Virus record (IMG/VR): IMGVR_UViG_3300027649_000013 | Span: 1-25,262 of that record | Length of the DNA stretch: 25,262 bases | Reading direction: 5' to 3' (one strand) | Origin: a virus | Part shown: positions 7,141 through 25,262 of the stretch, in pieces | Layout: the number at the start of each line of letters is the position of its first letter | Numbering within the stretch: the first letter of the stretch is position 1 | Program-made: the position numbers and the translations under genes | Notes under the pieces: model-generated | What the model saw: only the letters and a program-made list of their open reading frames with translations | Told to the model about the DNA's origin: nothing | Database searches by the model: none

Positions 7141-7152
7141 AACAGATTTTTA

Positions 7153-7776
7153 TTACCAAGCAGACGGCTTGGTAAAACGTCCATTCGCATCGGATAAGGG
7201 ACTAGGAAACTGTGAGGCAGAGAGCACTCCCTGCCGAATCTGCTTAATAAAATCGATGTGTGGCAACAAAGCTCGACTAGGATTCTTTTGAGGATTAAGG
7301 ATGCCAACCTTTTTACCGAGTTCTTCGCGGACGATTCTTATTGGAGCCAGAAGATCGGAATCATTTGAAATCACGACAGCAATATCAAATCGTCCTAAAT
7401 GTGCATCATGCAGTAAATGGGTTGCCAGATTAACATCAGAACCTTTTTCTTCGGTCTTGATGACCCTTGCATATTGTTGAGGCTGCCCTGTTGGAACTAC
7501 CAATGGCATGAATATCTCATGTGTTAGAAAATGTCCAAGATGAACAGAGACATTTGGCAACGTAGCTAAAGCACGCAGATATAACTGCTGCCTGACGGGC
7601 TGGTCCAAATCGTTAGGTCTTGCAGAAACCAGGGCGGTAAAATATTTTATTTCACCAATCCTGTTGTTGGGCAGCAGCAAACGACACATCTGGTTTGGAT
7701 CAACCCAACGATGGGGCGTTTTACGTAACGCGCCATAGTAAAAATTAAATCCGTCAATATAGACGTTTGTGATCAT
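7153..7776 (-). CDS. NYN-domain (PIN-like, LabA type) putative RNase, phage moron
   Basis: The ATG at 7776 is chosen because MITNVYIDGFNFYYGAL is the exact start expected of an NYN domain; the frame runs 50 codons further but through promoter and hairpin DNA. The 207-residue protein shows the acidic metal-binding set D8 with N11, E109/E110, D114 in KGSDVNLA, and D139/D141 in ISNDSDLLAPI. NYN proteins are Mg-dependent RNases of the PIN fold. The gene faces against the structural operon, lies between protease and capsid genes, is AT-richer than its neighbours and has its own promoter. Those are features of a moron expressed from the prophage. A role in host RNA control or phage exclusion is inferred, not shown. 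Confidence 0.9.
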   Translation of the reverse strand: MITNVYIDGFNFYYGALRKTPHRWVDPNQMCRLLLPNNRIGEIKYFTALVSARPNDLDQPVRQQLYLRALATLPNVSVHLGHFLTHEIFMPLVVPTGQPQQYARVIKTEEKGSDVNLATHLLHDAHLGRFDIAVVISNDSDLLAPIRIVREELGKKVGILNPQKNPSRALLPHIDFIKQIRQGVLSASQFPSPLSDANGRFTKPSAW

Positions 7777-7795
7777 TGCGAATTCCAGAAATGCA

Positions 7796-7817
7796 GAAGC
7801 CACCCGAGGGTGGCTTC
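7796..7817 (-). other. Leader hairpin B of the NYN gene
   Basis: GAAGCCACCC and GGGTGGCTTC form a perfect 10-base inverted repeat separated by two bases. It lies in the 5' leader of the NYN gene, 19 bases before its ATG. No T-run follows on either strand, so it is not a simple terminator. Confidence 0.7.
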
Positions 7818-7820
7818 GCG

Positions 7821-7842
7821 CCCGGCTACCGAAGCAACCGGG
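7821..7842 (-). other. Leader hairpin A of the NYN gene, UUCG tetraloop
   Basis: Read on the minus strand, CCCGGTTGC and GTAGCCGGG pair over nine positions (two of them G-U) around a TTCG tetraloop, a very stable loop in RNA. It sits just 3 bases upstream of hairpin B, and together they fill nearly all of the predicted ~73-base leader. Confidence 0.6.
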
Positions 7843-7855
7843 GGGATGTGCGAAT

Positions 7856-7884
7856 ATTATGCATAACAAACCAACCGATTGCAA
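7856..7884 (-). promoter_or_regulatory. Sigma-70 promoter for the NYN gene
   Basis: On the minus strand TTGCAA (7884-7879) and CATAAT (7861-7856) are separated by exactly 17 bases, each close to consensus. The predicted start of transcription is near 7849, just before the two leader hairpins. This is the best promoter match I see in the window. Confidence 0.65.
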
Positions 7885-7941
7885 TAGTAATCTGATTTTG
7901 TATTTTGTAGCAAACCCGCGATTCATCGCACCTCAAGTCTG

Positions 7942-7964
7942 ACCGCCCTCGTGGCGGTTTTTTT
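7942..7964 (+). terminator. Rho-independent terminator before the capsid gene (first of two)
   Basis: ACCGCC and GGCGGT form a 6-base stem with a 5-base loop, followed by a run of seven T. It lies 42 bases before the capsid start, with no room for a new promoter after it, so it must be leaky, anti-terminated or used as an RNA end signal. Confidence 0.75.
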
Positions 7965-7966
7965 AT

Positions 7967-7987
7967 ACCCGCGTCAGGCGGGTTTTT
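7967..7987 (+). terminator. Rho-independent terminator before the capsid gene (second of two)
   Basis: ACCCGC and GCGGGT pair over six bases around a GTCAG loop, followed by TTTTT (counting the paired T). It is nearly identical to the hairpin at 11568-11589. The capsid ribosome binding site (CAGGAG) begins six bases later. Confidence 0.7.
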
Positions 7988-8005
7988 CATTTCAGGAGAA
8001 ATCAA

Positions 8006-9337
8006 ATGAGTAAACAATTGCGCGAGCTGCAGGCTCGCAAATCCACGCTGATCCAAGAAGCCCGTGCGCTCACCGAGCGCGCGGCCACCGACAACCGCGA
8101 CATGAGCGATGAAGAGGTCAGCGCCTTTGATGCGCTAAAGGCCCGCATTGACTCCGCCTCCGGCGCCATTGACCGCGAATCGAGCCTGATCGCTGAGGAA
8201 GCGCAAATGGCCATAGGCGCACTGAACCACCCGCGCAACGCGCACATCACGGTGACCGACAACCGTCAGGCCGACCCGATGCACGGCTTCCAATCGGTGG
8301 GCGAATTCATGCAGGCGGTCTACCAGGCTGACAAGCCCGGCAAGTCCCTCGATGAGCGTCTCCTCATTGGTCGCGATTGGGGTGGTGGCCGTGGTGCGGC
8401 AGCCCCAGGCAGCTTTGCCAACGAGGCCTCGGGCCAAGACGGCGGCTTCATGGTGCCCCCACAGTTCTCGCAGCAGATTTTTCAGCTCTCCCTTGGCGAG
8501 GATTCCCTGTTGCCGATGACCGACAACGTGGAAATCTCCGGTAACAGCATGGCATTCCCCAAAGACGAGACCACGCCCTGGGGCACCAACGGCATCCGCG
8601 CCTACTGGCAGGGTGAGGCCAATGCAGCAATAGCCACCAAACCCGTTCTGGGCCTGGCCACTTTGCGCTTGAAGAAGCTGATGGCGCTGGTGCCCACCAC
8701 CGACGAGTTGCTCGATGACGCCAGCGCGCTCACGAGCTACCTGCCGGACAAGGTGGCGACCTCGATGCGCTGGAAGATGAACGAGTCGATTCTGTTCGGT
8801 GCTGGCAACGGCGTGCCGGTTGGGGCGTTGAGTTCGGGGGCTACCGTAACGGTCGCCAAGGAAACGGGGCAAACCACGCAAACGCTATTTCCCCAGAACC
8901 TGGCCAAGATGATTGCGCGCCTGCCCTCGGGCTCGTTCGCCAATGCAGTATGGATCGTCAACAACGATGTACTGCCAGCACTCTTTACGCTGACCTTGGG
9001 CAATTACCCGATCTACCTGCCAACAGGTCTGGGAGTCGGCGGCATTCAGATCTCGCCCTACGGCACGCTCTTGGGGCGTCCGGTGTTTGTGTCGCAGCAC
9101 GCCAATACCTTCTCAGCGCAAGGTGACATCTTGCTGGTCGATCTGAAGTACTACCAGACCATCACCAAGTCAGGCGGCATGCAGACAGCCACATCGATGC
9201 ATCTGTACTTCGATGCGGACCTCACGGCGTTTCGCACCACCTTTCGCATGGATGGGCAATCCAAGATCGTCGCGCCCATTTCGCCTGCCAAAGGTAGCGC
9301 CACCATGTCCCCGTTCATTCAACTCGGCGCGCGCTAA
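8006..9337 (+). CDS. Major capsid protein, HK97 fold
   Basis: The 443-residue product has the two-part layout of HK97-like capsid precursors. Residues 1 to about 75 are a charged, coiled-coil delta domain (LRELQARKSTLIQEARALTE), expected to act as internal scaffold and be removed by the S49 protease. The HK97 domain follows, with EASGQDGGFMVPPQFSQQIF near the start of the mature part, LRLKKLMALVPTTDELLDD, MNESILFGAGNGVPVG and the late strand segment LYFDADLTAFRTTFRMDG. It starts at an ATG with CAGGAG 7 bases upstream, directly after two terminator hairpins. High expression is expected. No separate scaffold gene is needed with this architecture. Confidence 0.96.
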   Translation: MSKQLRELQARKSTLIQEARALTERAATDNRDMSDEEVSAFDALKARIDSASGAIDRESSLIAEEAQMAIGALNHPRNAHITVTDNRQADPMHGFQSVGEFMQAVYQADKPGKSLDERLLIGRDWGGGRGAAAPGSFANEASGQDGGFMVPPQFSQQIFQLSLGEDSLLPMTDNVEISGNSMAFPKDETTPWGTNGIRAYWQGEANAAIATKPVLGLATLRLKKLMALVPTTDELLDDASALTSYLPDKVATSMRWKMNESILFGAGNGVPVGALSSGATVTVAKETGQTTQTLFPQNLAKMIARLPSGSFANAVWIVNNDVLPALFTLTLGNYPIYLPTGLGVGGIQISPYGTLLGRPVFVSQHANTFSAQGDILLVDLKYYQTITKSGGMQTATSMHLYFDADLTAFRTTFRMDGQSKIVAPISPAKGSATMSPFIQLGAR

Positions 9338-9364
9338 AGCGTCCACCACACAAGGAGAAAAACT

Positions 9365-9811
9365 ATGTTTCCAAACTCACAAGCCAGCGAGATGCTCGCC
9401 CTCATCGCTACCCTCGATCCAGCCTCCCAGGCCGCAGGCGCAGTCAGCACCGGCTGGGTGTCGGTGGCCAACCACCTCGGATTTCTGGCGCTGGTGCAAA
9501 CCGGCGTGCTGGGCACGGCCGCTACGGTCGACGCCAAACTGCAGCAGGCACTGGACAACGCAGGCACCGGTGCAAAAGACATCACCGGCAAATCCATCAC
9601 CCAGATCGTCAAGGCCACGGGTGACAACAAGCAGGCGCTCATCAACATCAAGCCCGAGGAACTGGACACCGTCAATGGTTTCGGTTTTGTGCGGGTCACG
9701 GTGACGGTTGGCGTAGCCGCCAGCATTACCTCAGCGCAACTGATCGGTGTGAATCCGCGCTACGCGCCGGCGGACTCGCAAAACCAGGCGGCCGTGGTGC
9801 AGGTCATCTAA
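9365..9811 (+). CDS. Probable head decoration/stabilisation protein, 148 aa
   Basis: A strong AAGGAG precedes the ATG at 9365. The protein begins with a helical Ala-rich part (SEMLALIATLDPASQAAG), passes through FLALVQTGVLGTAATVDAKLQQALDNAG and ends in beta-rich sequence (FGFVRVTVTVGVAASITSAQL). The middle block is one I associate with a widespread uncharacterised family placed directly after capsid genes in HK97-type prophages. Position and beta-rich C-terminus suggest a capsid decoration or cementing protein, but this is inference from context. It has no membrane segment. The next gene starts immediately after its stop codon. Confidence 0.75.
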   Translation: MFPNSQASEMLALIATLDPASQAAGAVSTGWVSVANHLGFLALVQTGVLGTAATVDAKLQQALDNAGTGAKDITGKSITQIVKATGDNKQALINIKPEELDTVNGFGFVRVTVTVGVAASITSAQLIGVNPRYAPADSQNQAAVVQVI

Positions 9812-10387
9812 ATGCCGCTGCAACTCATCACCCCACCCGCAGAGGAACCGGTGTCGATTATTGACGCCAAGCTCCACCTGCGGGTGGACTTTAACGAGGA
9901 CGACACCTTGATTGCCTCCTTGATCTCGGCATCTCGGCAAGCCGCTGAGACCCTGACCGGATGCCAGTTCGTGACCGGGCGCTGGAAACTGGTGCTCGAT
10001 GGGTTCCCGCGTTGCGTCATCGCGCTGCCTAAATGCCCGGTGCAGTCGGTGCTGACCATCAATTACCTGGACATGAACGCAGTGCTGCAGACCATGCCGG
10101 CCTCAACCTACACGGTGGATACGGCGTGTGAGCCAGCGCGTATCACCCCCGTGTTCGGTCAGTTCTGGCCGCTCGCGCTGCCGCAGATCGGCGCGGTGAC
10201 GGTCACCTTCGATGCCGGGTATGGCGCGCCATCTGATGTTCCCGAGGGCATCAAGAGCTGGATCAAACTGCGTGTGGGAAGCCTCTACGCGTACCGCGAG
10301 GAAGTCGCTGTGACGAGCGGCGGTCGTATCGAAACATTGCCCTTCATGGACGGATTGCTCGATCCCTACAAAGTCTCACTCATATGA
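9812..10387 (+). CDS. Head-tail connector (phiE125 gp8 / HK97 gp6-like)
   Basis: The 191-residue protein starts MPLQLITPPAEEPVSIIDAK and continues with LHLRVDFNEDDTLIASLISASRQAAETLTG, the classic N-terminus of the phiE125 gp8/HK97 gp6-like adaptor family. A further family block is WKLVLDGFP and the beta segments around VQSVLTINYLD. These proteins form the ring that joins the portal to head-closure and tail proteins. The gene begins at the base after the previous stop, and its end overlaps the head-closure gene start by four bases (ATGA), which fits coupled translation of neck proteins. Confidence 0.92.
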   Translation: MPLQLITPPAEEPVSIIDAKLHLRVDFNEDDTLIASLISASRQAAETLTGCQFVTGRWKLVLDGFPRCVIALPKCPVQSVLTINYLDMNAVLQTMPASTYTVDTACEPARITPVFGQFWPLALPQIGAVTVTFDAGYGAPSDVPEGIKSWIKLRVGSLYAYREEVAVTSGGRIETLPFMDGLLDPYKVSLI

Positions 10388-10728
10388 ATTCGCTGCAGGC
10401 AGGTCAATTGAATCGGCGCATCACGCTGGAGTCCCTGGTGCAGACTAAGGATTCGGAAGGCGGCATGGTCGATAGCTGGTCTGCGGTCGCCACGGTATGG
10501 GCCAAAGTGGACAACCTGTCAGGCAATGATCGCCGCGCCACCAGTCACGGTGGACAGGTTGCAGAAGCCCGCACTGAATTCACTATTCGGCACCGGTCGG
10601 GTCTCAATGCAAAAATGCGCGTGAACTACGGCGGTAAAAAATACAACATCCGCCACCTCAATGATTTTGCTGAGGAGCATCGCTTCGTGGTGTTGACGTG
10701 CGACACCGGGGTGAATGATGGGCGGTAG
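10384..10728 (+). CDS. Head closure protein (phage head-tail joining family)
   Basis: The 114-residue protein has the head-tail joining pattern: AGQLNRRITLESLVQTKDSEGG at the start, WAKVDNLSG, then EARTEFTIRHRSGLN and MRVNYGGKKYNIRHLND. This is the family of SPP1 gp16 and HK97 gp7-type stoppers that plug the portal exit after packaging and bind the tail. It overlaps the connector gene by four bases at its start and the next gene by 14 bases at its end, an order conserved in HK97-like phages. Confidence 0.93.
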   Translation: MNSLQAGQLNRRITLESLVQTKDSEGGMVDSWSAVATVWAKVDNLSGNDRRATSHGGQVAEARTEFTIRHRSGLNAKMRVNYGGKKYNIRHLNDFAEEHRFVVLTCDTGVNDGR

Positions 10729-11203
10729 CAGGGTCCTTGGCATAGGCGAGCTGATCCGCTCGTTTGCAACGTTGGCGATCGACATGAAAAAAACCGCCGC
10801 CCGACGCATTGCGGCAGCAGGTGCCAGTATGTTGCGCCAGGAATCGCGTGTAATCGCGCAAGCCCTCGGCCTGCGCAAGACCGGCGCATTGATCAAGAAC
10901 ATTGTCATCAAGCGCGAGCGCAATGTGCCGCCCGGCACCGAGCAATACAACCTGGGCGTGCGACACGGGCGGGACTTGGGCAATGGAAAGAAAGTCACAA
11001 AATACTTAGCGCTCAACAAATCTGGGCGCGTTGTGACCCGGCGGCAGAATGATCCGTTTTACTGGAGTTTTTTGGAATTCACCACGAAACGTCGCACCGG
11101 GACGCCCTTTATTGCAAAAGCACTTGAGAACAAATCCACCGAGGCCATCGCCGCCATGGAAGCGCAGGCGCTGAAAGAGGTTGAGAGGGCTGCCAGCAAA
11201 TGA
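10715..11203 (+). CDS. HK97 gp10-like tail component
   Basis: The 162-residue basic protein contains ELIRSFATLAIDMKKTAARRIAAAGASMLRQESR, then LRKTGALIKNIVIKRE, and a late segment FYWSFLEFTTKRRTGTPFIAKALE. This is the layout of HK97 gp10-family proteins (G-T-P-A/F-x-P-F-like end motif), which act in tail completion at the head-proximal end. Two adjacent ATGs at 10715 and 10718 could both start it. The gene overlaps its upstream neighbour by 14 bases and its downstream neighbour by four bases. Confidence 0.88.
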   Translation: MMGGSRVLGIGELIRSFATLAIDMKKTAARRIAAAGASMLRQESRVIAQALGLRKTGALIKNIVIKRERNVPPGTEQYNLGVRHGRDLGNGKKVTKYLALNKSGRVVTRRQNDPFYWSFLEFTTKRRTGTPFIAKALENKSTEAIAAMEAQALKEVERAASK

Positions 11204-11547
11204 CCATCAAATCGCAGGTGCTCACCGCCCTATCTGCCGTGTTGGCGAACACCTGGGCGGTAGATCTACCGGAGCAGCCCACCTGGCCCGCGATCGTATT
11301 TGATATCGACAGCGAACCGGAACAGAACTGGGTGCAGGACGGCGGCTACGACCAGCACACTGTGGGCGTGGTGATACTGGCCAAAACGCTGGGCGAGATT
11401 CCTGTGCTACAGACCTCAGTTGATGCAGCGCTGGCGGAAATCCTGGTCTATCTACGCGAAGAAGGCCGCGGGGATGCGGCTTATGAATCAGATCCGAGCG
11501 TTTACGCTTGTTTTTCTAATCATGTAATTCGCACCCGTCGAATCTGA
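11200..11547 (+). CDS. Probable tail terminator/completion protein (DUF3168-like)
   Basis: The 115-residue acidic protein begins MTIKSQVLTALSAVLANTW and contains WPAIVFDIDSEPEQNW followed by HTVGVVILAKTL and a long helix (TSVDAALAEILVYLREE). Short proteins of this form after the gp10-like gene are usually the tail terminator that stops tube growth, like lambda gpU or DUF3168 members. The family match is moderate and position is the main support. It overlaps the preceding gene by four bases. A terminator hairpin follows 20 bases after its stop. Confidence 0.7.
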   Translation: MTIKSQVLTALSAVLANTWAVDLPEQPTWPAIVFDIDSEPEQNWVQDGGYDQHTVGVVILAKTLGEIPVLQTSVDAALAEILVYLREEGRGDAAYESDPSVYACFSNHVIRTRRI

Positions 11548-11567
11548 GCCTGCCGCATCCGACTATC

Positions 11568-11589
11568 AACCCGCTCAGGCGGGTTTTTT
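11568..11589 (+). terminator. Rho-independent terminator after the tail completion gene
   Basis: AACCCGC and GCGGGTT form a 7-base stem with a TCAG loop, and six T follow the GC part of the stem. It ends only two bases before the GGAG that serves the next gene, and it closely resembles the hairpin at 7967-7987. Confidence 0.75.
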
Positions 11590-11603
11590 ATGGAGAAAAA
11601 ATC

Positions 11604-11801
11604 ATGAGCAACAAGAAACAGATTCCACCCGTTGCGCCCGGCATCGACGTTGAATTCGCTGATAGCGTGGATGTCCTGAGTGGCGCCGAAGACTCCGACC
11701 TGTTGCGCGCCATCACCACCGATGACCATGCCGGCAAGGGTGGGTCCTACACCTACGACCCCGCTACTGGACAACGCACGCGCAACCAGGATTCAGCGTA
11801 A
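11604..11801 (+). CDS. Small acidic phage protein, 65 aa, unknown function
   Basis: I do not recognise the family. A clear GGAG precedes the ATG at 11604. The protein is hydrophilic and acidic in the middle (DVEFADSVDVLSGAEDSDLL), ends with a Gly/Tyr/Thr-rich tail (GGSYTYDPATGQRT), and has no membrane segment. It is placed between the tail completion gene and the tail tube gene, directly behind a terminator hairpin. The good ribosome binding site and the fixed position suggest a real structural or accessory tail gene. Low structure is likely, perhaps a small surface or assembly protein. Confidence 0.7.
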   Translation: MSNKKQIPPVAPGIDVEFADSVDVLSGAEDSDLLRAITTDDHAGKGGSYTYDPATGQRTRNQDSA

Positions 11802-11841
11802 CCGCTTTTATTTTCCGATCACAACTTGTCAGGAGTAACCC

Positions 11842-12774
11842 ATGTCAAAAGCATCGCGTAATGTAATCCTGCTCGCAAAAATCCAGCCCGTCGTCGGGAC
11901 GGATTCTGTCCCAACCGTCGGGGCCAATGCCATTTTGTGCAGCGAGCCGAAAGTCGATCCGCTCAATGCGCAGATCGTGAAGCGCAACAATGTGCTGGCA
12001 TGGATGGGCAACCCCGGTAGTGTCGTGGCCGCCGTACATTCCACCATCGAGTTCGAAGTGGAAATGCAGGGTTCCGGCGTTGCCGGTACACCGCCCAAGT
12101 TTGGTCCGCTGTTACGTGGCTGCGCGTTAGGGGAAACCATCGTGGCAGCCACCAGTGTTGGCTATACGCCGGTCGATACCGCGCACGAATTACTCTCGTT
12201 TTATTATTTCCTTGATGGGATCAAACACGTAATCACTGATGCGAAGGGCACGGTCTCATTCGATCTGAATGCACAAGGCATCCCGGTGATGAAATTCAAA
12301 TTCTGGGGCTTTTACTCGACCCCAACAGACCTCACCAATCCTTCCGGAACGGATTACTCCGGATTCAAGGATCCGCTGCCGATCAATAAGGCCAATACCA
12401 CCGCCTTCACCTTGCACGGCATTGCGCTCAAATCCAAATCACAAACACTCGATCTGGCAAATCAGGTGGAGTACGTCAACAAACCTAACTTCGAGGGCAT
12501 CCAGATCACCAACCGCATGCCGGTGGGCAGTGCAGTTTTCGAAGTGGATACGCTTGCCGTGAAAGACTGGTACAGCGTAATCAAGAACGGTACGCTCGGC
12601 GCATTGGCCGTGACACACGGGCTGACTGCTGGCTACATTTCCGGTATTAGCGCTCCCAAAGTGCAATTAACAAACTTATCTTATACCTCCGACCAAGGCA
12701 TTGCCCATTGCAATTCGAGCATGGATTTGCAGGCCAATGCCGGGCGAGATGAACTGGTTGTGACATTCACTTAA
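11842..12774 (+). CDS. Major tail tube protein
   Basis: The 310-residue protein begins MSKASRNVILLAKIQPVVGTDSVP, the usual start of the phage tail tube proteins of HK97-like prophages (Phage_tube_2 type). Later blocks are EFEVEMQGSG, PKFGPLLRGCALGE and the beta-rich end LQANAGRDELVVTF. It polymerises into the tube around the tape measure. The internal segment KGTVSFDLNAQGIPVMKFKFWGFY is a conserved strand pair. AGGAG lies nine bases before the ATG. A terminator hairpin follows its stop and precedes the chaperone gene. The length is in the usual range for tube proteins with a C-terminal immunoglobulin-like extension. Confidence 0.9.
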   Translation: MSKASRNVILLAKIQPVVGTDSVPTVGANAILCSEPKVDPLNAQIVKRNNVLAWMGNPGSVVAAVHSTIEFEVEMQGSGVAGTPPKFGPLLRGCALGETIVAATSVGYTPVDTAHELLSFYYFLDGIKHVITDAKGTVSFDLNAQGIPVMKFKFWGFYSTPTDLTNPSGTDYSGFKDPLPINKANTTAFTLHGIALKSKSQTLDLANQVEYVNKPNFEGIQITNRMPVGSAVFEVDTLAVKDWYSVIKNGTLGALAVTHGLTAGYISGISAPKVQLTNLSYTSDQGIAHCNSSMDLQANAGRDELVVTFT

Positions 12775-12799
12775 ACCGGTTCTGATGCAGCACCCCTTT

Positions 12800-12822
12800 G
12801 CCTCGCTCCTGCGAGGCTTTTT
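12800..12822 (+). terminator. Rho-independent terminator after the tail tube gene
   Basis: GCCTCG and CGAGGC form a 6-base stem with a 6-base loop, followed by TTTTT. It lies between the tail tube stop and the ribosome binding site of the assembly chaperone, where a drop in transcript level would fit the lower need for chaperone. Confidence 0.75.
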
Positions 12823-12843
12823 GTTCTATTCGAGGAATCAATC

Positions 12844-13173
12844 ATGACATTTAAAAAATCCGCTAAGCCCACCTTCACCAGCCGCGTGACGGTGAATATG
12901 CCCAACGACAAAGGCGGACACGACAAGTCGCAATTCGATGCGGTATTCAAGTACATCAGCAACTCCATCGAACTGGAGGAATTGCGCAACCTGTCCGCCC
13001 GCGAGGTGATGGAACGAGTGTTGCTTGGTTGGAAAGAGTTTGTCGATGAACAGGGTGCGCCGGTTGATTTCAATGAAGCTGAAGTGCAGGCGTTGCTGTC
13101 GATCCCGCAGGCGTTATACGGCTTGATGGAAGCGTTTTGGAGCAACGTCGTCAAGGCATCAATAAAAAACTAG
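12844..13173 (+). CDS. Tail assembly chaperone (lambda G-like), 109 aa
   Basis: The gene lies between the tail tube and tape measure genes, where siphoviruses place the G/GT chaperone pair. The product starts MTFKKSAKPTFTSRVTVNMP, contains a conserved-looking helical core (LEELRNLSAREVMERVLLGWKEF split by short loops) and ends KASIKN at the TAG at 13171. The last codons form the slippery heptamer A AAA AAC, so some ribosomes should shift to -1 and continue into the next frame, giving a 242-residue fusion. These proteins bind the tape measure and tube subunits and are not part of the final particle. GAGG lies ten bases before the ATG. Confidence 0.85.
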   Translation: MTFKKSAKPTFTSRVTVNMPNDKGGHDKSQFDAVFKYISNSIELEELRNLSAREVMERVLLGWKEFVDEQGAPVDFNEAEVQALLSIPQALYGLMEAFWSNVVKASIKN

Positions 13174-13571
13174 AGGAGGCCGCGCGCTGGTGGGCAGGTG
13201 ACAGGCATGCCTCCGCCGCGCGGCTCCAGCACGGTACTGCCGTCCTCGATGGACTGATTGCCGACAGTGCACAGGAAGATGTAATCGAAGCGGTGCGCGC
13301 GCGCATCGAGCAAGCCGACACGCCGGACGAAGATACTGCCGATGCTTTCGAGGTGTTCTCAGAAAACTGGGACAGCGTCCTATTTTTCCTGCGGGTTGGC
13401 ACGCAATGGAATGCAATCGGCGGCATGGAGCGGGTGCATTGGCTGGGCCTGAACTATGCCGGAGTCGAAACGCGCATGCCGAAATCAAAAAAGAAACGCA
13501 AAAAGCTGTGGGATGACCTCCAAATAATGGAGGCCACCGCGCTGGAAGTTCTGAATCGTCAAAAGGATTGA
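13137..13571 (+). CDS. DUF1799-like C-terminal part of the tail assembly chaperone (GT-like extension)
   Basis: This frame is -1 relative to the chaperone gene. After a shift at 13164-13170 it is read from the codon at 13170 (LEEAARWWAGD) and adds 133 residues. The region contains FSENWDSVLFFLRVGTQW, GG and WLGLNYAGVE, the pattern of the DUF1799 family of phage proteins. It ends with a very basic stretch (PKSKKKRKKLW) and a helix. The only upstream start is a TTG at 13137 with a weak GGAAG, so independent translation is possible but less convincing than frameshifting. The stop is six bases before the tape measure RBS region ends, and the tape measure starts at 13574. Confidence 0.8.
   Translation: MEQRRQGINKKLEEAARWWAGDRHASAARLQHGTAVLDGLIADSAQEDVIEAVRARIEQADTPDEDTADAFEVFSENWDSVLFFLRVGTQWNAIGGMERVHWLGLNYAGVETRMPKSKKKRKKLWDDLQIMEATALEVLNRQKD
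13164..13224 (+). promoter_or_regulatory. Programmed -1 ribosomal frameshift site with downstream stem
   Basis: A AAA AAC sits at 13164-13170 exactly in the zero-frame X XXY YYZ phase, one codon before the TAG. A stem GCCGCGCG (13179-13186) with CGCGCGGC (13217-13224) begins eight bases after the heptamer, a standard spacing. The loop of 30 bases can form an inner hairpin. Heptamer, phase, spacing, stop codon and gene context all agree. Confidence 0.85.
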
Positions 13572-13573
13572 TC

Positions 13574-16500
13574 ATGTCGGCACTCGGATCATTGGTGGTG
13601 AAACTCGCGCTGGAATATGCCGAGTACACCCAAGGTCTCGACAAATCCAGTCAGGCTGCGCTCATGCATGCCAAAAATGTGCAGCGTAATTTTGATTCTG
13701 CCGAGAAGTCAGCCAAGCAATATTTCAGCCGTATCGCAACCGGCGCAGTTGCGGCCGTGGCCGCGTATGCCGGTATCAACGCTGCGATCGACCGTCTGAG
13801 TAACTCCATCAACACCTTAGCCAAACTCGACGACATGGCGCAGAAGACTGGCTCCTCGGTCGAGAACCTCTCTCGTATCCAGAAAACCGTTGCTGCATTC
13901 GGCGGCGATTTCGGCGCAGTCGATAACGCCATTGCCAAGCTCGCCAAGGGCATGGGCACGATAGACAGCGATACCAACAAAGCCAACAACGCGCTCAAGG
14001 CGCTGGGTATTTCTTCGCGCGATACCGCTGGCAATTTGCGCGATCCGTCCCAGGTGATGATCGAGATCGCCAGGAATTTACAGAACTACGCCGATGGCGC
14101 GGGCAAGACTGCGCTGGCCACTGATCTGTTCGGTAAATCCGGTGCGGAAATCATGCCGGTATTGAACGACATGGCGGACAACATCAGCCGCTTCTCCGGT
14201 GTCTCGACCGAGGCCGCGCAGCAGGCCTCACTGCTGAAAGACCAGATGGGGCTGATGAGCGGGCATGTGGATTCGCTGTACACCTCCATGGCACTGAACC
14301 TGATGCCAGCGCTGACCGATATCGCCGGAGCAATGAACAATACTTCGACCAATACGGTGGCATTCACCGCCACCGCCGATGCAGCAGGGATTGCCCTCAA
14401 GGGACTGGTCACCGCGGGCTCACTGGTGGGGTATGTGTTCACCCAAGTCGGCACTGCCATTGGTGCGGCGGCGGCGATGGCCGATCGTTTCGCGCATCTC
14501 GATTTCTCCGGCGTCAAGGTAATCAAGGATGCGTTCTTGAGCGACGCCGCTGACAATTACGCGTCGCTGGGGAAATTCATCGGCGACGTGTGGAACGGCT
14601 CGTCGGAGGTCGCGAAGCAAACCTCCAAAATCAACACGCCCGCAGTAGCCAAGCCCGCACTCAACTACCAGTCTGGCGCGGCAGCTGCCAGTGCCTCTGA
14701 CGCCAAAGCCGCCATCAATGCCTACGACAAACTGATTGGCTCGATCCATGAGAAAACTGCCGCGCAGGCGCTCGAATTATCCGGGCAGGCCAAGTTGACT
14801 GACGGGCAGAAAACCGCACTGGATGCCATGGTCAAATTGCGCGACGGCACGCTCAACCTGACCAGCGTGCAGAAAATCAAACTGACCGGAGATCTGGAAA
14901 ATCTGCTCACCACCGAGCAATCAGTGACCGCCATGCAGGCCGCCAAGAAAGCCGCTGATGATCTGATCCAATCCGGCCAGCGGCAGATCACCGGCGTACA
15001 AGGACAGCTCGACGCGCTGCGTGAACAGAATGCCATGATCGGCATGAGTAACGAGCAGATCATCGCATTGACCGGATCGAAGAACGAGGAACTTGCGGCA
15101 AACCTGCGTAGTGCCGCCGTCTATGCCGGGCCATTGCATGATGCATACATCCAGCATGCCAACGATCTGGATGCGCTCGCGCAACTACAGCGAGATCTAG
15201 TGAAAGAGCAACAGATTGCCAAAGCGGGGGAAGACTGGAGTCGGATGTGGAGCACGATGGAACAGACCGGCCGCATGGCATTCGTGCAATTCGCCGCACA
15301 CGGGACAAGCGCGATGGCATCCATCGGGCAATCCATCAAGATGTCCATCATTGATCTGCTGTATCAGCTCACGGTACGCAAGTGGATCATCAACATCGGC
15401 ACTTCGTTGAGCGGGAGTTTTGCTGCAGGGGCAGCCAATGCCGCCGGGGGCTCGGTGAGCGGTGGTGGCATCAGCCTGATGAACATCGCCTCCAGCGCCA
15501 GCAATGTTTTCAGTGCGGTCACCGGCGGACTCACCAGCACGCTCGGCAGCGGTATTGCTGGTCTTGGCAGTATGTTCGGTTCCAGCGCGGTGAGCGCGTT
15601 TGGCGCTGGCTTAGCCGGCTCCACGGCAGGCATATTCAGTGCGGCAGGTGGGGCAGGTACTGCGTTCATCGGTGGCGCCGGCACGGCAATCGGAGGCGCT
15701 GGCATGGGTGCTGCCGCCACCATCGGCGCGAGCCTGGCAGCAATGGCCGGGCCTGCGATTGCACTGATCGCGGTTGATCTGGTTTTCAGAAAACTCGCTG
15801 GTGATAAAGTAATTGGTGGGGGCGTGGGGAAGGTACTGAATTATGTGCCGGTGCTCGGCCCCATGCTGAACACCATGTTTGGGCGCGGCCCGTTTAAACC
15901 CGCCGGGCCGCAGGAGTTGGTCGGACAGTTTGATGCCAGCGGCTTCGAGGGCGACCTGCAGCAAACAATGCGCAGCAAAGGCGGATGGTTTCGTAAAAAC
16001 CGCTACAGAGTAGACCACACGGCTCTTAGCGAGGATACGCAACAAGGCCTCTCTTCGGTCGTCGCGACAGCCTCCGCCATCTATGCCGATCTGATTCAGT
16101 CCGCCGATGAAGGCGCCCGCTCGCTCGCAGGCTGGACCTATTCAGTGCGACGGCAGATCGACTCTGAAGAGAAGATCAAGCAGTTGACTATTGACGTGTC
16201 CAACAGTCTGGGCATGCGCCTGGTGCCGGAATTGGCGGCGGTGCAGCAGAAGGGCGAGCAGTTGACGGACACCGCCAAACGCATGCGCTCGGAATTCATT
16301 TTGACCACCGAACTGATCGATCTCACCGGGCAGTCGTTTGGTGCATTGGGGCTGGCCAGCACCGTCGCACGCGACAACCTGATCCAGTTATTTGGGGGAG
16401 TGGATAAGGCGGCTGCGCCGCTGCAGGCGTACTACCAGAGTTTTTACACCGACGCCGAGCGCAACGCCAGCGGCTGGCGGCTGCTAAATCATGCGCTGTC

Positions 16501-17065
16501 CAATCTCGGGCTGACCACTCTACCCGCCACGCTCGACCAGTACCGCGCCCTGACCGAGGCGCAGGATCTAAGCACCAATGCCGGGCAGGGAATGTTCTCA
16601 GCGCTGGTGCAACTCGCGCCCGCGTTCGCATCGTTGACCAATGCGACTGAGCAGTTGGGCCAGGGTATCGTCGCGCTGACAGAGGACTATTTTGCCACGC
16701 TGACGGACTATATTCGCTACCAGCACACCAGGCAGACCGGCAGCAATACGCTGCTGAGCCAGACCAACGCATTCCGCCCGCCTGGGTTTGCCAGCGGCGG
16801 TAATTTCGCCGGTGGTCTACGCATCGTCGGGGAGAATGGCCCCGAGTTGGAGGCCACCGGCCCATCGCGCATCATCAGCAATAATGAGTTGATGGCCAAG
16901 CTGCGCAGCCCCGATGCTGGCAATGCTGCGTTTGTGGCGGAAATTCGCCAACTCCGCGCAGAACTCAAAAAAACTAACGATGCAATCGCACGCCACGTTT
17001 CAGCAACCGCCGATATGGTGCGTCGCTGGGACAACGATGGCATGCCCGCCGTGAGAACGGTATGA
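13574..17065 (+). CDS. Tail length tape measure protein
   Basis: At 1163 residues this is the largest gene and follows the chaperone pair, as expected. The ATG at 13574 with AAAGGA six bases upstream is preferred to the TTG two codons earlier. The N-terminal part is helical (YAEYTQGLDKSSQAALMHAK), with a block LDDMAQKTGSSVENLSRIQ typical of phage tape measures. Long helices follow to about residue 580, then an Ala/Gly-rich hydrophobic stretch around 610-740 that could insert into the host membrane. The end carries the familiar GFASGGNFAGG...VGENGPELE segment. The protein sets tail length and leads DNA into the cell. Its stop overlaps the next start (ATGA). Confidence 0.95.
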   Translation: MSALGSLVVKLALEYAEYTQGLDKSSQAALMHAKNVQRNFDSAEKSAKQYFSRIATGAVAAVAAYAGINAAIDRLSNSINTLAKLDDMAQKTGSSVENLSRIQKTVAAFGGDFGAVDNAIAKLAKGMGTIDSDTNKANNALKALGISSRDTAGNLRDPSQVMIEIARNLQNYADGAGKTALATDLFGKSGAEIMPVLNDMADNISRFSGVSTEAAQQASLLKDQMGLMSGHVDSLYTSMALNLMPALTDIAGAMNNTSTNTVAFTATADAAGIALKGLVTAGSLVGYVFTQVGTAIGAAAAMADRFAHLDFSGVKVIKDAFLSDAADNYASLGKFIGDVWNGSSEVAKQTSKINTPAVAKPALNYQSGAAAASASDAKAAINAYDKLIGSIHEKTAAQALELSGQAKLTDGQKTALDAMVKLRDGTLNLTSVQKIKLTGDLENLLTTEQSVTAMQAAKKAADDLIQSGQRQITGVQGQLDALREQNAMIGMSNEQIIALTGSKNEELAANLRSAAVYAGPLHDAYIQHANDLDALAQLQRDLVKEQQIAKAGEDWSRMWSTMEQTGRMAFVQFAAHGTSAMASIGQSIKMSIIDLLYQLTVRKWIINIGTSLSGSFAAGAANAAGGSVSGGGISLMNIASSASNVFSAVTGGLTSTLGSGIAGLGSMFGSSAVSAFGAGLAGSTAGIFSAAGGAGTAFIGGAGTAIGGAGMGAAATIGASLAAMAGPAIALIAVDLVFRKLAGDKVIGGGVGKVLNYVPVLGPMLNTMFGRGPFKPAGPQELVGQFDASGFEGDLQQTMRSKGGWFRKNRYRVDHTALSEDTQQGLSSVVATASAIYADLIQSADEGARSLAGWTYSVRRQIDSEEKIKQLTIDVSNSLGMRLVPELAAVQQKGEQLTDTAKRMRSEFILTTELIDLTGQSFGALGLASTVARDNLIQLFGGVDKAAAPLQAYYQSFYTDAERNASGWRLLNHALSNLGLTTLPATLDQYRALTEAQDLSTNAGQGMFSALVQLAPAFASLTNATEQLGQGIVALTEDYFATLTDYIRYQHTRQTGSNTLLSQTNAFRPPGFASGGNFAGGLRIVGENGPELEATGPSRIISNNELMAKLRSPDAGNAAFVAEIRQLRAELKKTNDAIARHVSATADMVRRWDNDGMPAVRTV

Positions 17066-19876: not shown

Positions 19877-20365
19877 ATGACACCAAATCAAAAAGCATTT
19901 CTGGAAATGATTGCTTACAGCGAACTGGGCTCCGCACTGTTGAAATCCTCCGACAATGGATACAACGTCATAGTCGGGTCAACACCGGCGCACCCGATCC
20001 TGTTTCACGACTACTCAAAACATCCGCGTCAACTGATAAAGCTGAGGCCCACGCTTGCATCAACTGCGGCGGGCCGCTATCAATTGCTTGCTCGTTACTT
20101 CGATGCATACAAACTCAGCATGGCCCTACCAGACTTCTCGCCGCATAGCCAAGACTTGATTGCGCTGCAACAGATCAAGGAGTGCCGTGCGCTGGATGAC
20201 ATCGAGGCCGGAAAGTTCCAGTCGGCCGTTAGGAAGTGCGCTCACATTTGGGCAAGCCTCCCCGGTGCCGGTTATGGCCAACACGAAAACAACATGGAAA
20301 ACCTACAAGCGGCCTACAAGCAAGCTGGCGGCACGCTGGTGGTTTCACAAAAGGATGATCTATGA
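19877..20365 (+). CDS. Endolysin, lambda R-like lytic transglycosylase (GH104)
   Basis: The 162-residue protein closely follows lambda R: QKAFLEMIAYSE (catalytic E16, equal to lambda Glu19), GYNVIVG, DYSKHPRQLIKLRPTL, STAAGRYQLLARYFDAYKL, FSPHSQDLIALQQIKE and IWASLPGAGYGQ. The enzyme cuts the glycan chain of peptidoglycan, forming anhydro-muramic ends. It has no signal peptide or anchor, so it depends on a holin for release. Two short insertions relative to lambda lie after SE and after VIVG. Its last codon overlaps the holin start (ATGA). The ribosome binding site is weak (GAG), which may delay or limit synthesis. Confidence 0.95.
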   Translation: MTPNQKAFLEMIAYSELGSALLKSSDNGYNVIVGSTPAHPILFHDYSKHPRQLIKLRPTLASTAAGRYQLLARYFDAYKLSMALPDFSPHSQDLIALQQIKECRALDDIEAGKFQSAVRKCAHIWASLPGAGYGQHENNMENLQAAYKQAGGTLVVSQKDDL

Positions 20366-20619: not shown

Positions 20620-21202
20620 AATTCTGGCATTCAAGGAATTCCTGCTGATCGTTGCAATCTCCGTGGTGCTGTTCGCCATATCCTGGGGATGGCATTGGTA
20701 TCGTGAGCATGGTGCGCCTGTTGGGAAGTCTCTGCCCGCTGTTATTTCCTGGGAAGTCGCTCATCAGCCACATGAGTTGGCCGACATGAAGGTTCCGCCC
20801 GAAGTTATTGCTGGCGGAAAGAGGGTCAAGGAAAACCTGAATCTTCCTGCCTCAGTAGTGCAGCAGGACAGCAAAAAGGTGACGGGGGCCGCCACCACGA
20901 AGGCAGATGGTCACCGTCATACAATCACCAGTGTGCTGGATACATCCACCGGCAAGACCACCATGTATGACCGGGTAGACCCACTACCGTGGTTCCAATT
21001 TCTCACCAGTGGGCGTGTCGGCGCCTACTACGGAACAAGTGATCAAGGCGCGGCTGCCATGCTGCTTGTAGAGCAGGATTTGTTGCAGGTTAAGGCGCTT
21101 CGACTTGGAGTAATCGGTACGGTGACTCAACCTACCGGTATGAACGCTGGGCAGCTCTCAACCCATGGGTTTGTTGGCATCGGCGGACGGATCGAATGGT
21201 GA
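20594..21202 (+). CDS. Membrane-anchored phage protein, about 200 aa, unknown function
   Basis: The gene overlaps the holin end by 26 bases. ATG codons at 20594 and 20609 are both possible; the second has AGGG seven bases upstream. One N-terminal membrane helix (about 13-32, FLLIVAISVVLFAISWGWHWY) is followed by a soluble part with VPPEVIAGGKRVKENLNLPASVV, HTITSVLDTSTGKTTMYDR, and a beta-rich end with two Gly-rich turns. I have an impression of similar proteins at the end of lysis cassettes in proteobacterial prophages, but no function is known. The topology, membrane anchor and periplasmic domain, would suit a spanin-like or superinfection role. It does not look like Rz. Confidence 0.72.
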   Translation: MRRARMTAKILAFKEFLLIVAISVVLFAISWGWHWYREHGAPVGKSLPAVISWEVAHQPHELADMKVPPEVIAGGKRVKENLNLPASVVQQDSKKVTGAATTKADGHRHTITSVLDTSTGKTTMYDRVDPLPWFQFLTSGRVGAYYGTSDQGAAAMLLVEQDLLQVKALRLGVIGTVTQPTGMNAGQLSTHGFVGIGGRIEW

Positions 21203-21245
21203 TTATATTCCTCCAAGTATTCGACATAAATATACGCAGTTAACT

Positions 21246-21533
21246 GACATCGATCTGATCACGGCATTGAACGCCACGCTGCGCTACTGCCCGGTGCTGG
21301 CCACTGAGCCCGAGGGGCGGCTCGCCGCCATCGTGGATTTCACGTTCAACCTCGGGGCGGGGCGGCTGCAGGCCTCGACGCTTAGGCGGCGGGTCAATCA
21401 GCGGGACTGGCATGGAGCGGGCCAGGAGCTGCGGCGGTGGGTGTATGGCGGCGGGGTTGTGCTGCCGGGGTTGGTGATTAGGCGGGAGGCGGAGATCGCC
21501 CTGCTGATCGCCGGGGTGAAGACCAGCGTCTAG
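21246..21533 (+). pseudogene. C-terminal remnant of a GH24 (T4-type) lysozyme
   Basis: The frame gives ALNATLRYCPVLATEPEGRL, then AAIVDFTFNLGAGRLQ, STLRRRVN, and RRWVYGGGVVLPGLVIRREA, the C-terminal half of phage/bacterial GH24 endolysins. The N-terminal half with the catalytic Glu and the GYG motif is absent: upstream DNA is the end of the preceding gene and about 45 AT-rich bases. An ATG at 21165 is in frame but encodes unrelated residues. The remnant is G+C-rich compared with both sides. It is probably left from another lysis module, cut at about 21205-21250 by recombination. It marks the likely edge between phage and host DNA. Confidence 0.75.
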
Positions 21534-21564
21534 GCCCCGAAGCAATCCCGGCGGGGCTGCATCG

Positions 21565-22578
21565 TCATGGATTGTTCCAGCAACCTGGACTCTGCGAATC
21601 AAAGAATGTCACGGTGGTGTCTGTCAACGAGCGGCCAACGGCCTCGAGGACATGGCGGCAGAAGGCCTGCTGATCAGCTTCTGTTTGACCAGTGAACACG
21701 GAGACCGCCATTCGTCTAGGCGGACTTGCCGCGATGGCATCGAGTATATGCTGGTCCCGTTCGTCAAAGCTCCAGCCATACACGACCACACTCTCCCCGA
21801 GAGCGGGCAGGGCCTTCTCATACATGTTCGTCAGGTAGTGACTTCGGCGAATCGCGGCAACTTTCACCTTACTGGTTCCCTCACTAACAAACACCGGCAC
21901 GTAGCACTCGGACGACCACTTTCGGGTAATCGTTGCGAGCAAATCACCCGTCGTGCCAGTGGATGCCTCGATCTTTGTCTCATCACCGATGTAGTCGCGA
22001 GCTACTGACAGACTGCCATGTGGATAGAACACCAGCGTTGATCCCACCGCGCGCTGATAAGGCGTCCGCAGGTATTCCCAGTCCGTCTGGAATTCACCGT
22101 GACGGAACACGTCCTTGAACCAGTTGCCGTTTGCTGCATTGAACAGCAGCATGGCCCAGTACAAGGTGAGGTCATAGTTTAGGCTGACGACAGTTGGGAA
22201 CGAGCTCGCGAAAGCGCCAATCCGTTGCAGGTCGGCCACAACATCGGCATGTACCGGATGCACGCTGTGCACCGCTTCGATCAGTGCTGTGCGTACTTCC
22301 GCGTAGGCAGCGGAGATATCGGTCGACGGCGACCCCAAGGCCGCGTTGACGTGCTCGGCATACCAGCATGCGAGCAGCACATGTTCAAAGTCGGTCGTGC
22401 CAATCTTCGCAAAGATTGGTGCAGTGGTAGGAAGCAGCCCTTTTGCGTCAGCCACGCTGTGAAGTGTTGGATATGCAAATTCTTCATGAATGGCGATGCT
22501 GGCGCCGTTGCCAAGAAGGATGGTACTCCAACTTTCTCTATGGATGCTTGCCCAGGTGACGATGTCGATTCTGTCCAT
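21565..22578 (-). CDS. SIR2-like (DUF4917-like) protein downstream of brxL
   Basis: The 337-residue protein shows the SIR2-fold motif series: LLGNGASI at 21-28 (nucleotide-binding Gly motif), TTDFE at 61-65, SLNYD at 132-136, PHGSL at 186-190 with the candidate catalytic His, and VYGWSFDERD at 266-275. This pattern matches the DUF4917/SIR2_2-like group. SIR2-domain proteins in defence systems often cleave NAD on phage infection. It has no membrane segment. It lies 53 bases after brxL on the same strand, so it may be co-transcribed with the BREX operon, although its ribosome binding site is weak. Whether it works with BREX, or separately as a defence gene in the same island, cannot be told from sequence. 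Confidence 0.82.
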   Translation of the reverse strand: MDRIDIVTWASIHRESWSTILLGNGASIAIHEEFAYPTLHSVADAKGLLPTTAPIFAKIGTTDFEHVLLACWYAEHVNAALGSPSTDISAAYAEVRTALIEAVHSVHPVHADVVADLQRIGAFASSFPTVVSLNYDLTLYWAMLLFNAANGNWFKDVFRHGEFQTDWEYLRTPYQRAVGSTLVFYPHGSLSVARDYIGDETKIEASTGTTGDLLATITRKWSSECYVPVFVSEGTSKVKVAAIRRSHYLTNMYEKALPALGESVVVYGWSFDERDQHILDAIAASPPRRMAVSVFTGQTEADQQAFCRHVLEAVGRSLTDTTVTFFDSQSPGCWNNP

Positions 22579-22631
22579 GTATTTCTACGTATCCAATCTG
22601 TGCGCTGGAAGTTGGGCTCCATTCGTTTGCA

Positions 22632-24725
22632 TCATGCCCGGAAGATATCCACCTTCGTTTCCAGGCACTTGCGCAGACTCAGATCGTTTGCACCAACCTC
22701 AAACCAACCCGCAGGCTTCTGGTAGAAGTCCAGCCCGCGACCGATCTTGATGATCCAGCCGTTGTCGAGGTGGATTTCGCGGTCATGGATGTTCGGGTTG
22801 AGTTTCACCTCTAGCTCGACGTCCAACTCCAGGAGACTCTGTTTGAGCTCGTCAAGCTTCTCGGCGATGTCGGCCAACTGGGTCTTGTCGTCGTAGCCGG
22901 TGATCAGGCTGATCTTCTCCACGGTGCCTGCCTTCAGCACCGTTTCGCAGAAGCGCACGAAGTTCTGAATCTGATGTTGCAACCGGATATACGGATCCTC
23001 GATGGCGACGGCCTTTGCACCCTGTAAGTAGGGGCCAAGGATCGACTCATAGCTGTAACCGGTGTCGCCATAAAGGATGCTGAAATGCTGCTCCTTGAGC
23101 TCCACTGCTGGTGGCGCAACCACCGCTGGTGTTGGCGCAATCGGCGATGGAGCCACTGAAGGTTCTGCCGCAACGGTAGGCGCAGGCTGCCCGGCAGACT
23201 GCGCTTCTACTGCCTCGCTGGATTGCTCACTCGCCTGGCTTAAACGACGACGAGCCGGCTGCTGTGTTGCCGCCGCATCCTTCGATTCAGGGCAGAAAAC
23301 TACCACCTCCTCACCGCTGGCCTTGAAGTAGGACAGATTGATGCGTGCAAACTCGTCGTCTGGCTTGCGCTTATTCATTTGCTCCTTGACGCGGCGGCGG
23401 CACTCAGTCGCGTAGGCCACGTACTCTTCGAACTCGTCATCGGTCGGCGGCCCGTTCGGGTGCAGGATCTTCAAGAACGCGCAGACGGTTTTCTTGATGC
23501 CTTTTTCGTCGCGCCCCTCGATGGCCTTGCCGAGTCGAATGCGCTTGCTGACTTCCTCATACCGGTTGGTGTGCTTGAACTGGTAGTGGAAGGCCTCTGC
23601 AAGGTAATCGGTGATGAATCCGTAACTGCTGGTCAGGAACTCGCTGCTGTTCTTGGGCATCTCCCAGCCCGGGATGTACGCCGCGAAGCGGTCCATCACT
23701 GCCAGGTCAAACTCGGGTGGAAGCGGTTGGAACAGGTCATGCTCGTTGGAGTTCACCACTTGCTGGATCGATACATCGATGTTTCCGACGAAACTCAGAC
23801 TGGCATCAGCAATGACCTCAGCGCCGCGCGAAAAGCGCCCGTTGGCCATGAAGTCCTTCATGATCTGGATGGTGTCCTGATCGCGCACTTTGATCCCGCC
23901 AACCTCGTCAAACGCGACCGTGTCCCAAAAGCCGACCAGGCCCACCTTGCGTCGGGCATTGTTGTAGAACAGCGTGGCCTTGGTCGCTTGGCCGCCCGAG
24001 ATCAAGGTGGCGTAGGGCGAAAACTCGCTGAAGAAATAGGACTTACCGGTGCCGCGTGGGCCTAATTCGATGTAGTTGTAATTGGGTTCCACCAAGGCTG
24101 CCAGCCGAGCGATGAAGTGCATCTGCACTCGCTTCGACAGCTTGCTTGGCTCCAGACCAACCGAACGCAGAACCGCGGCGATCCACTCGTCGCGTGTGAA
24201 TGCTACCCGGCCTTCGGTGTAGCGCTCAAAGTCGAATCGTGAGAGTTGAATGGGCCGCAGATCCTCGATCGAGAACGCGTAGTCGTCCTCATCGATATCG
24301 TTGTGCGCCAGGGTGACTTCCGCCCAAATTCCGCCTTCTAGAAGCCGGTCGTTATCGCGGTAGAATTTCTCGCCAATCGCAATGCGCTGCGAGTTGAAAT
24401 TCTCCAGGGATGCCCAGTGGCGCTTCTCCTTCTCGACATAACGGACGTGAATCTTGTCGATGAAGCGGTGCTTGCCCTTGGTGGCCACCTTGGATTGAGC
24501 TGCATTGGCTTCGTCAGGACGAACGTAATTCTCCTGCAAGGAGGAGAGCACTGCTTCAATGCCTGCATCCATTTCTGCCTGGTCATTGCTGGCGCAATAC
24601 TTGGCGAGCAGAAACTCCAGGACAAAGGTTGGGACGTTGGTGCCTTTCTTAATCCGATGCAGCAAGTCCTTGCGAAGAACTTTGCCATCGAAGGTTACAT
24701 TTAGCTTTTGGTCAAGTTCGTCCAT
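22632..24725 (-). CDS. brxL: BREX ATPase BrxL (Lon-like AAA+) with C-terminal PLD-like domain
   Basis: The 697-residue protein has the BrxL layout: an N-terminal region to about 190, then an AAA+ domain with Walker A GPRGTGKS at 222-229, Walker B VAFDE at 270-274, sensor FVGNID at 312-317 and an arginine-finger-like MDRF at 344-347. A Gln/Ser/Ala/Pro-rich linker covers about 483-543. The C-terminal part (544-697) has EDPYIRLQHQIQNFVRFCE, IHDREIHLDNGW and IKIGRGLDFYQK, the pattern of the MIT C-terminal (phospholipase D-like) domain. BrxL of type 1 BREX forms DNA-encircling hexamers and is required for blocking phage. It begins five bases after the pglZ stop, typical of operon coupling, with only a weak GGAA before its ATG. 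Confidence 0.93.
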   Translation of the reverse strand: MDELDQKLNVTFDGKVLRKDLLHRIKKGTNVPTFVLEFLLAKYCASNDQAEMDAGIEAVLSSLQENYVRPDEANAAQSKVATKGKHRFIDKIHVRYVEKEKRHWASLENFNSQRIAIGEKFYRDNDRLLEGGIWAEVTLAHNDIDEDDYAFSIEDLRPIQLSRFDFERYTEGRVAFTRDEWIAAVLRSVGLEPSKLSKRVQMHFIARLAALVEPNYNYIELGPRGTGKSYFFSEFSPYATLISGGQATKATLFYNNARRKVGLVGFWDTVAFDEVGGIKVRDQDTIQIMKDFMANGRFSRGAEVIADASLSFVGNIDVSIQQVVNSNEHDLFQPLPPEFDLAVMDRFAAYIPGWEMPKNSSEFLTSSYGFITDYLAEAFHYQFKHTNRYEEVSKRIRLGKAIEGRDEKGIKKTVCAFLKILHPNGPPTDDEFEEYVAYATECRRRVKEQMNKRKPDDEFARINLSYFKASGEEVVVFCPESKDAAATQQPARRRLSQASEQSSEAVEAQSAGQPAPTVAAEPSVAPSPIAPTPAVVAPPAVELKEQHFSILYGDTGYSYESILGPYLQGAKAVAIEDPYIRLQHQIQNFVRFCETVLKAGTVEKISLITGYDDKTQLADIAEKLDELKQSLLELDVELEVKLNPNIHDREIHLDNGWIIKIGRGLDFYQKPAGWFEVGANDLSLRKCLETKVDIFRA

Positions 24726-24730
24726 TTTTA

Positions 24731-25262
24731 TTATTCCGTATAGTCAGTTTCAATCGCAAGAGTGCTGTATGTGGCGAGCGTGGTTGGGTTCAGTACCTTG
24801 AACGAAAACTTACCCCTGAATTCATCATCCATCCGTAGCGCAATCTGTTTGCGTTGGTCCGTCATCAAAGTCACGGTTCGGGTGGTGGGATTCACATCAC
24901 CGCCGGGGCGTGGCTCACCCACCACATTGCCCTTGCTGTCCTGGGCTTCCAACAAGATTTCAACGCTCATGTCCTGCGAGAACATGTCGTCTGCAACCAG
25001 TATCACTTCGACAACCGGCAATCGCGTAGTAATTCGTTTGGCGCCATTCTTGTAGCTCAGCTCCACCACTACCTTGCGCAATTCCGCATGGGGGGTGGTA
25101 TCCAGCCGCGCTACCAGCACGGGTACGACAGCTTCCGCGAGGGATACTCCGCCGTGGAAATACAGATGCCCCGCACGATAGGGCGCCATGCTGCGGGGCA
25201 AGGCTACTTGGGAGAAGTCGCCCCGAATGCCGACCTTATCCGCGCTGACGATCAGGCTGTGA
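24731..25262 (-). CDS. pglZ: BREX protein PglZ, C-terminal end (partial)
   Basis: The frame is open to the right edge and codes for about 176 residues. It contains HSLIVSADKVGIRGDF, PRSMAPYRAGHLYFHGGVS and LAEAVVPVLVARL, the hallmark C-terminal segment of PglZ (YFHGG.S..E..VPV), followed by a beta-rich tail ending TLAIETDYTE. PglZ is an alkaline-phosphatase-fold protein shared by all BREX types; the catalytic part lies outside the window. A TTG at 25201 should not be taken as its start, because the matching sequence continues upstream. Order pglZ-brxL is that of type 1 BREX, so pglX, brxC, brxB and brxA would be expected beyond the edge. Confidence 0.92.
   Translation of the reverse strand, partial: HSLIVSADKVGIRGDFSQVALPRSMAPYRAGHLYFHGGVSLAEAVVPVLVARLDTTPHAELRKVVVELSYKNGAKRITTRLPVVEVILVADDMFSQDMSVEILLEAQDSKGNVVGEPRPGGDVNPTTRTVTLMTDQRKQIALRMDDEFRGKFSFKVLNPTTLATYSTLAIETDYTE

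Follow-up and report, generated by a model that had tools for sequence, protein, structure and literature searches.

A gene for a SIR2-like protein of the DUF4917 family stands directly behind a BREX operon in the DNA analysed here, a stretch of 25,262 nucleotides (positions 1 to 25,262 of IMG/VR virus record IMGVR_UViG_3300027649_000013, referred to below as the window). This arrangement raised the question whether the gene is a functional part of BREX or a defence gene in its own right. A first-pass annotation had suggested that it acts as a backup effector if BREX fails, or shares its sensing. Open reading frames and their translations agreed exactly with the order, strand, and gaps of 5 and 53 bases described at that stage: pglZ, brxL, and the DUF4917 gene are all encoded on the minus strand at the 3' end of the window, which otherwise consists mainly of a prophage on the plus strand. 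The relevant features are the following.

3207-17065, plus strand: prophage structural region (TerL, portal, S49 protease, major head protein, tape measure)
19877-20365, plus strand: the prophage's own endolysin, intact and of a different family (phrog_90)
21165-21533, plus strand: 3' half of a phage lysozyme gene, covering Pfam positions 63-125 of 125
21250-21273, inside the lysozyme gene: putative crossover, where DNA similarity to other lysozymes starts
21534-21564: convergent gap of 31 nt from the DUF4917 stop codon to that of the lysozyme remnant
21565-22578, minus strand: DUF4917 / PDC-S21 gene, 337 aa, SIR2-like fold, reading frame intact
22579-22631: spacer of 53 nt between brxL and DUF4917, without a promoter-like site
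22632-24725, minus strand: brxL, 697 aa, final BREX-1 core gene, identified by profile matches
24726-24730: gap of 5 nt between pglZ and brxL
24731-25262, minus strand: 3' end of pglZ, running off the window, with a profile match to the PglZ C-terminus

The DUF4917 protein matched Pfam PF16263 over its full length with 249.6 bits (cut-off 28, E = 6.5e-74) and the PADLOC single-gene candidate PDC-S21 with 337.9 bits (E = 1.6e-101). Membership in AbiH was rejected, the score for PF14253 being 14.2 bits and thus under the cut-off of 30.9. All four motifs from which a SIR2-like fold had been deduced in the first-pass annotation are present, LLGNGASI at residues 20-27, SLNYD at 132-136, PHGSL at 186-190, and YGWSF at 267-271; GNGxS corresponds to residues 23-27. 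An AlphaFold2 model built from 42 homologues reached a pLDDT of 90.3, and the SIR2 of SIR2-HerA was its best Foldseek match in the PDB (E = 8e-10). Further significant matches were ThsA, KomC, and DSR2, all SIR2 domains of antiphage systems. By sequence, the DUF4917 family profile also reaches SIR2-HerA, weakly (E = 0.012). A fold search of BFVD gave no useful match, and INPHARED phages contained no match to the protein and none to the prophage DNA.

In the profile alignment of the 42 homologues, on which positions were counted by hand, N168 and H227 of the E. coli SIR2 protein in PDB entry 8j4u are the counterparts of N134 and H187. In the homologous SIR2 of V. cholerae SIR2-HerA, either N168A or H227A abolished immunity (PMC11559045). 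N134 and H187 are invariant in the 42 homologues and are kept, together with GNGxS, in homologues as remote as about 25% identity. Comparison with 11 relatives yielded dN/dS values of 0.10-0.16, indicating purifying selection on the gene. As modelled, the DUF4917 protein is a SIR2-fold protein with the catalytic Asn/His pair of an NAD pocket, and the two residues named in advance for this pocket, N134 and H187, are supported as the active-site pair. Because fold and active-site residues resemble those of antiphage SIR2 NADases, the protein is predicted to consume NAD.

Close relatives of the gene with 78-85% identity were taken from 21 genome loci and nine viral loci, and the window was added to the counts. 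The sample was picked by DUF4917, and counting was limited to loci with readable upstream DNA. The gene immediately before DUF4917 was mcrC in 12 cases, a DUF262 restriction gene in nine, brxA of BREX-3 in three, brxL in three, and none of these in one; the identities of the partners were confirmed separately. An enrichment of the family beside BREX had been proposed as a check. The outcome was mixed: a BREX gene is located not more than three genes away in about 11 of 26 close relatives, but these are mostly BREX-3, and McrBC or DUF262 is a commoner neighbour than BREX. On the DUF4917 gene tree the upstream partner switches at least ten times compared with a minimum of four, and the partners appear to be spread over the tree almost at random.

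Since this sample had been chosen by DUF4917, the reverse search was performed in viral contigs, with McrC, DUF262, and BrxL relatives for which enough downstream sequence was available. DUF4917, partly as mere remnants, followed 4 of 11 McrC, 6 of 25 DUF262, and one of nine close BrxL loci. In L155, L158, L159, L161, and L163, the mcrC stop is separated by 1-40 nt from a lysozyme gene and DUF4917 is absent; the same applies to L188, L190, and L191, in which 19-24 nt lie between the stop codons of brxL and lysozyme. Near-identical DUF262 loci, too, reach the same prophage lysozyme without DUF4917. The same operon ends thus meet the lysozyme with or without the gene, and therefore DUF4917 was regarded as an optional module which, as judged from these junctions, is inserted exactly where the last defence gene would otherwise meet the lysozyme. 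A constant cassette with a WYL regulator and DUF4917 as bookends, also considered, proved to be an artefact of querying with DUF4917, as the reverse search showed the gene to be optional.

More distant relatives were detected in quite different surroundings. In 16 plasmid regions the gene stands alone with varied defence and mobility genes nearby, and BREX was found in none of the 16. One distant relative is contained in an apparent integron array with DUF3265 genes, and several viral relatives occur as single genes with P2-like baseplate genes on one side and tail-completion genes on the other. In L116, L119, L123, and L140, where a distant DUF4917 gene occupies this P2-like interval, it is directly preceded by a small companion ORF of the MEEVEFFNDG-like or MEEKEFFSHG-like type. 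Among E. coli genomes, none was found with a P2-type relative. The genome of Achromobacter pulmonis ANB-1 harbors, at another place (G371:C1:6669-7649), a second DUF4917 gene that is 46% identical. The way in which the family is spread fits a self-contained gene.

Because the partners switch, operons occur without DUF4917, and distant relatives stand alone, the gene was taken to be self-contained. In the preferred reading, to which we assign a probability of roughly 0.7, it is a SIR2-type NAD-consuming abortive-infection gene, carried as swappable putative prophage cargo, and no component of BREX. By analogy with the relatives in fold, NADase activity, abortive infection, and a trigger are most likely. 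A phage trigger would switch on the DUF4917 protein, the active protein would hydrolyse NAD+, and cellular NAD+ would drop. The infected lysogen would then die or stall and no longer support the invader. This reading gives a family of defence candidates a testable mechanism, that of a SIR2 NADase dependent on N134 and H187.

The main rival is a guard of restriction systems in general. DUF4917 would be silent as long as BREX, type I RM, McrBC, or DUF262/GmrSD works and would be released when a phage inhibits the system. PrrC beside type Ic RM is a comparable guard. The direct upstream neighbours are indeed nearly all modification-linked systems, and the McrC and DUF4917 genes frequently overlap or stand a few nucleotides apart. 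Moreover, DUF4917 is embedded in type I operons at three loci, being flanked by hsdS and hsdR in L031 and by hsdM and hsdR in L130 and L135, and in L100 and L101 it adjoins type I RM genes. These relatives make it conceivable that the gene is functionally tied to modification-based systems. Against a guard, many relatives on plasmids, in the apparent integron array, and at P2-like sites have no such neighbour, the same restriction systems are found at the same site without DUF4917, and partners assort nearly at random on the gene tree. This explanation was considered unlikely.

A second rival is an accessory effector specific for BREX. The adjoining part of the genome contig (locus L023) completes the BREX type 1 operon beside DUF4917: all six core genes are present, brxA-brxB-brxC-pglX-pglZ-brxL on one strand, so that the gene is the last in a complete BREX-1 run, as had been supposed. 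Family assignment and BREX synteny are both far beyond what could be obtained by chance. A crude scan of the 53 nt behind brxL detected no promoter-like site, and an own promoter of DUF4917 in this gap was dismissed on that basis; the gene is probably co-transcribed with BREX. In another BREX-1 locus, L041, order and spacing of brxL and DUF4917 are identical, and several BREX-3 cassettes include the gene. Yet most BREX-1 loci with 80-92% identical brxL have no DUF4917, several of them ending at a prophage lysozyme, and in relatives lacking the gene the similarity of brxL runs to the stop codon and diverges after it. In 369 sampled genomes of the class, 11 contained DUF4917 and 16 a BrxL relative, and both together were detected only in the window's own genome. 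In L285, the closest BrxL locus of the class (87% identity), the lysozyme follows 24 nt downstream without DUF4917, and DUF4917 was missing from the short downstream stretch examined in each of the other 18 BrxL loci of that class. As a rule for the family, an accessory role in BREX was ruled out by the reverse searches, the gene being optional in BREX-1 and other partners being commoner, and for the window itself such a role was judged distinctly improbable. The BREX-specific function proposed initially was thus not supported; a backup effector is conceivable as redundancy of independent systems, but not as a part of BREX. DUF4917 would be located at the 3' end of the operon because its cargo site here also holds BREX-1. 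A tempting but wrong link is corrected in this way, the same operon being seen with and without the gene. Ahead of brxA (L023:15127-16771), a 166-aa ORF without family match and three small divergent ORFs were observed, followed near the contig end by DNA that appeared IS3-like by eye.

That DUF4917 is an inert passenger or a recombination homology anchor at the lysozyme, without defence function, is very improbable, since the recombination-prone junction and the remnants observed at L109, L144, and L171 have to be set against dN/dS values of 0.10-0.16, invariant active-site residues, and family members outside the lysozyme site.

In nearly all close relatives a convergent lysozyme gene, of one of two types, is located just downstream of DUF4917; in three loci a conjugative element's TraG region takes its place. 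Lysozyme type and upstream partner combine freely among these relatives. The N-terminal half of the lysozyme in the window is missing or diverged, and DNA similarity to lysozyme genes at more than 100 further loci begins sharply at 21250-21273, within the gene. From the half lysozyme, this sharp start, and the separate intact endolysin, we infer that BREX, DUF4917, and the half lysozyme came together by recombination. A hairpin terminator between DUF4917 and the lysozyme was rejected, the predicted RNA fold of the 31-nt gap being no better than that of shuffled sequences. At L109, the C-terminal part of DUF4917 alone survives between two lysozymes.

Among 80 viral lysozyme loci (L204-L283), the cargo on the 3' side varied from locus to locus. 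Genes of BREX-1, BREX-3, DUF262, McrB, TIR, and TatD DNase were among those seen on the lysozyme side. Prophage callers may trim such cargo away at the lysozyme, because 26 of the 80 records end less than 400 nt past it. One mark of a prophage defence hotspot, defence genes that change from locus to locus next to a conserved phage gene, was therefore found at the lysozyme. It appears somewhat more probable than the opposite that several unrelated types of prophage have a defence hotspot of large capacity at the lysozyme 3' end. Cassettes of BREX-1, BREX-3, or type I RM-McrBC, often headed by a WYL regulator, would be swapped there through recombination at the lysozyme gene or within it and would also be shared with conjugative elements, DUF4917 being an optional terminal module. 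If so, phages would exchange complete multi-gene immune systems, and the site is perhaps a more interesting outcome than the DUF4917 gene. No description of such a large-capacity hotspot beside lysozyme was found in the part of the literature covered.

A serine integrase is located 35 kb to the left. A search by shared words up to the contig end found no attR, and the far cassette end and the prophage attachment site were likewise searched without success. L024 contains a large serine recombinase (7885-9303), probably the prophage integrase, next to apparent genes for RND efflux, and no att repeat matching it was found at the opposite end. A WYL-domain regulator heads most of these defence cassettes (L015, L018, L019, L002, and other wide loci), sometimes followed by PsyrT, and a serine recombinase is present further out in at least one locus (L070). 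In L002, a second lysozyme copy lies at the far side of the cassette, at -12218 to -11823 relative to DUF4917.

How does the locus compare with known systems? The family is already listed as a defence candidate, and defence by SIR2 proteins is established. The full-length match places the protein in PDC-S21 of PADLOC and DUF4917 of Pfam, and nothing excludes its membership; the literature covered, which was partial, yielded no paper giving a mechanism for either, DUF4917 being mentioned once and PDC-S21 not at all. SIR2 of SIR2-HerA (Nezha) is the best fold match, with aligned active-site Asn and His; identity in the structural alignment is about 14%. SIR2-HerA, however, has an adjacent herA gene, and none is found beside DUF4917 in the window, where the neighbours are brxL and the lysozyme. 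DSR2 and ThsA share the SIR2 fold and are known to act by NAD depletion. DSR2 has about 1000 aa, a large part of the protein serving as sensing region, and ThsA acts together with ThsB and a signalling molecule; in contrast, DUF4917 is a single protein of 337 aa. A complete BREX type 1 operon adjoins the gene, but DUF4917 is not one of its core genes. In the hotspots of P2 and P4 prophages, loci are reported to comprise about 1-5 kb and to contain neither BREX nor type I RM (Rousset 2022, PMC9122126). The lysozyme site resembles them in that the defence cargo next to a conserved phage gene has a high turnover, and single-gene DUF4917 occurs in P2-like phages as well. It differs in that entire systems of the BREX-1, BREX-3, and type I RM kinds adjoin the lysozyme here, which suggests that complete BREX and type I RM systems are exchanged between prophages beside this gene.
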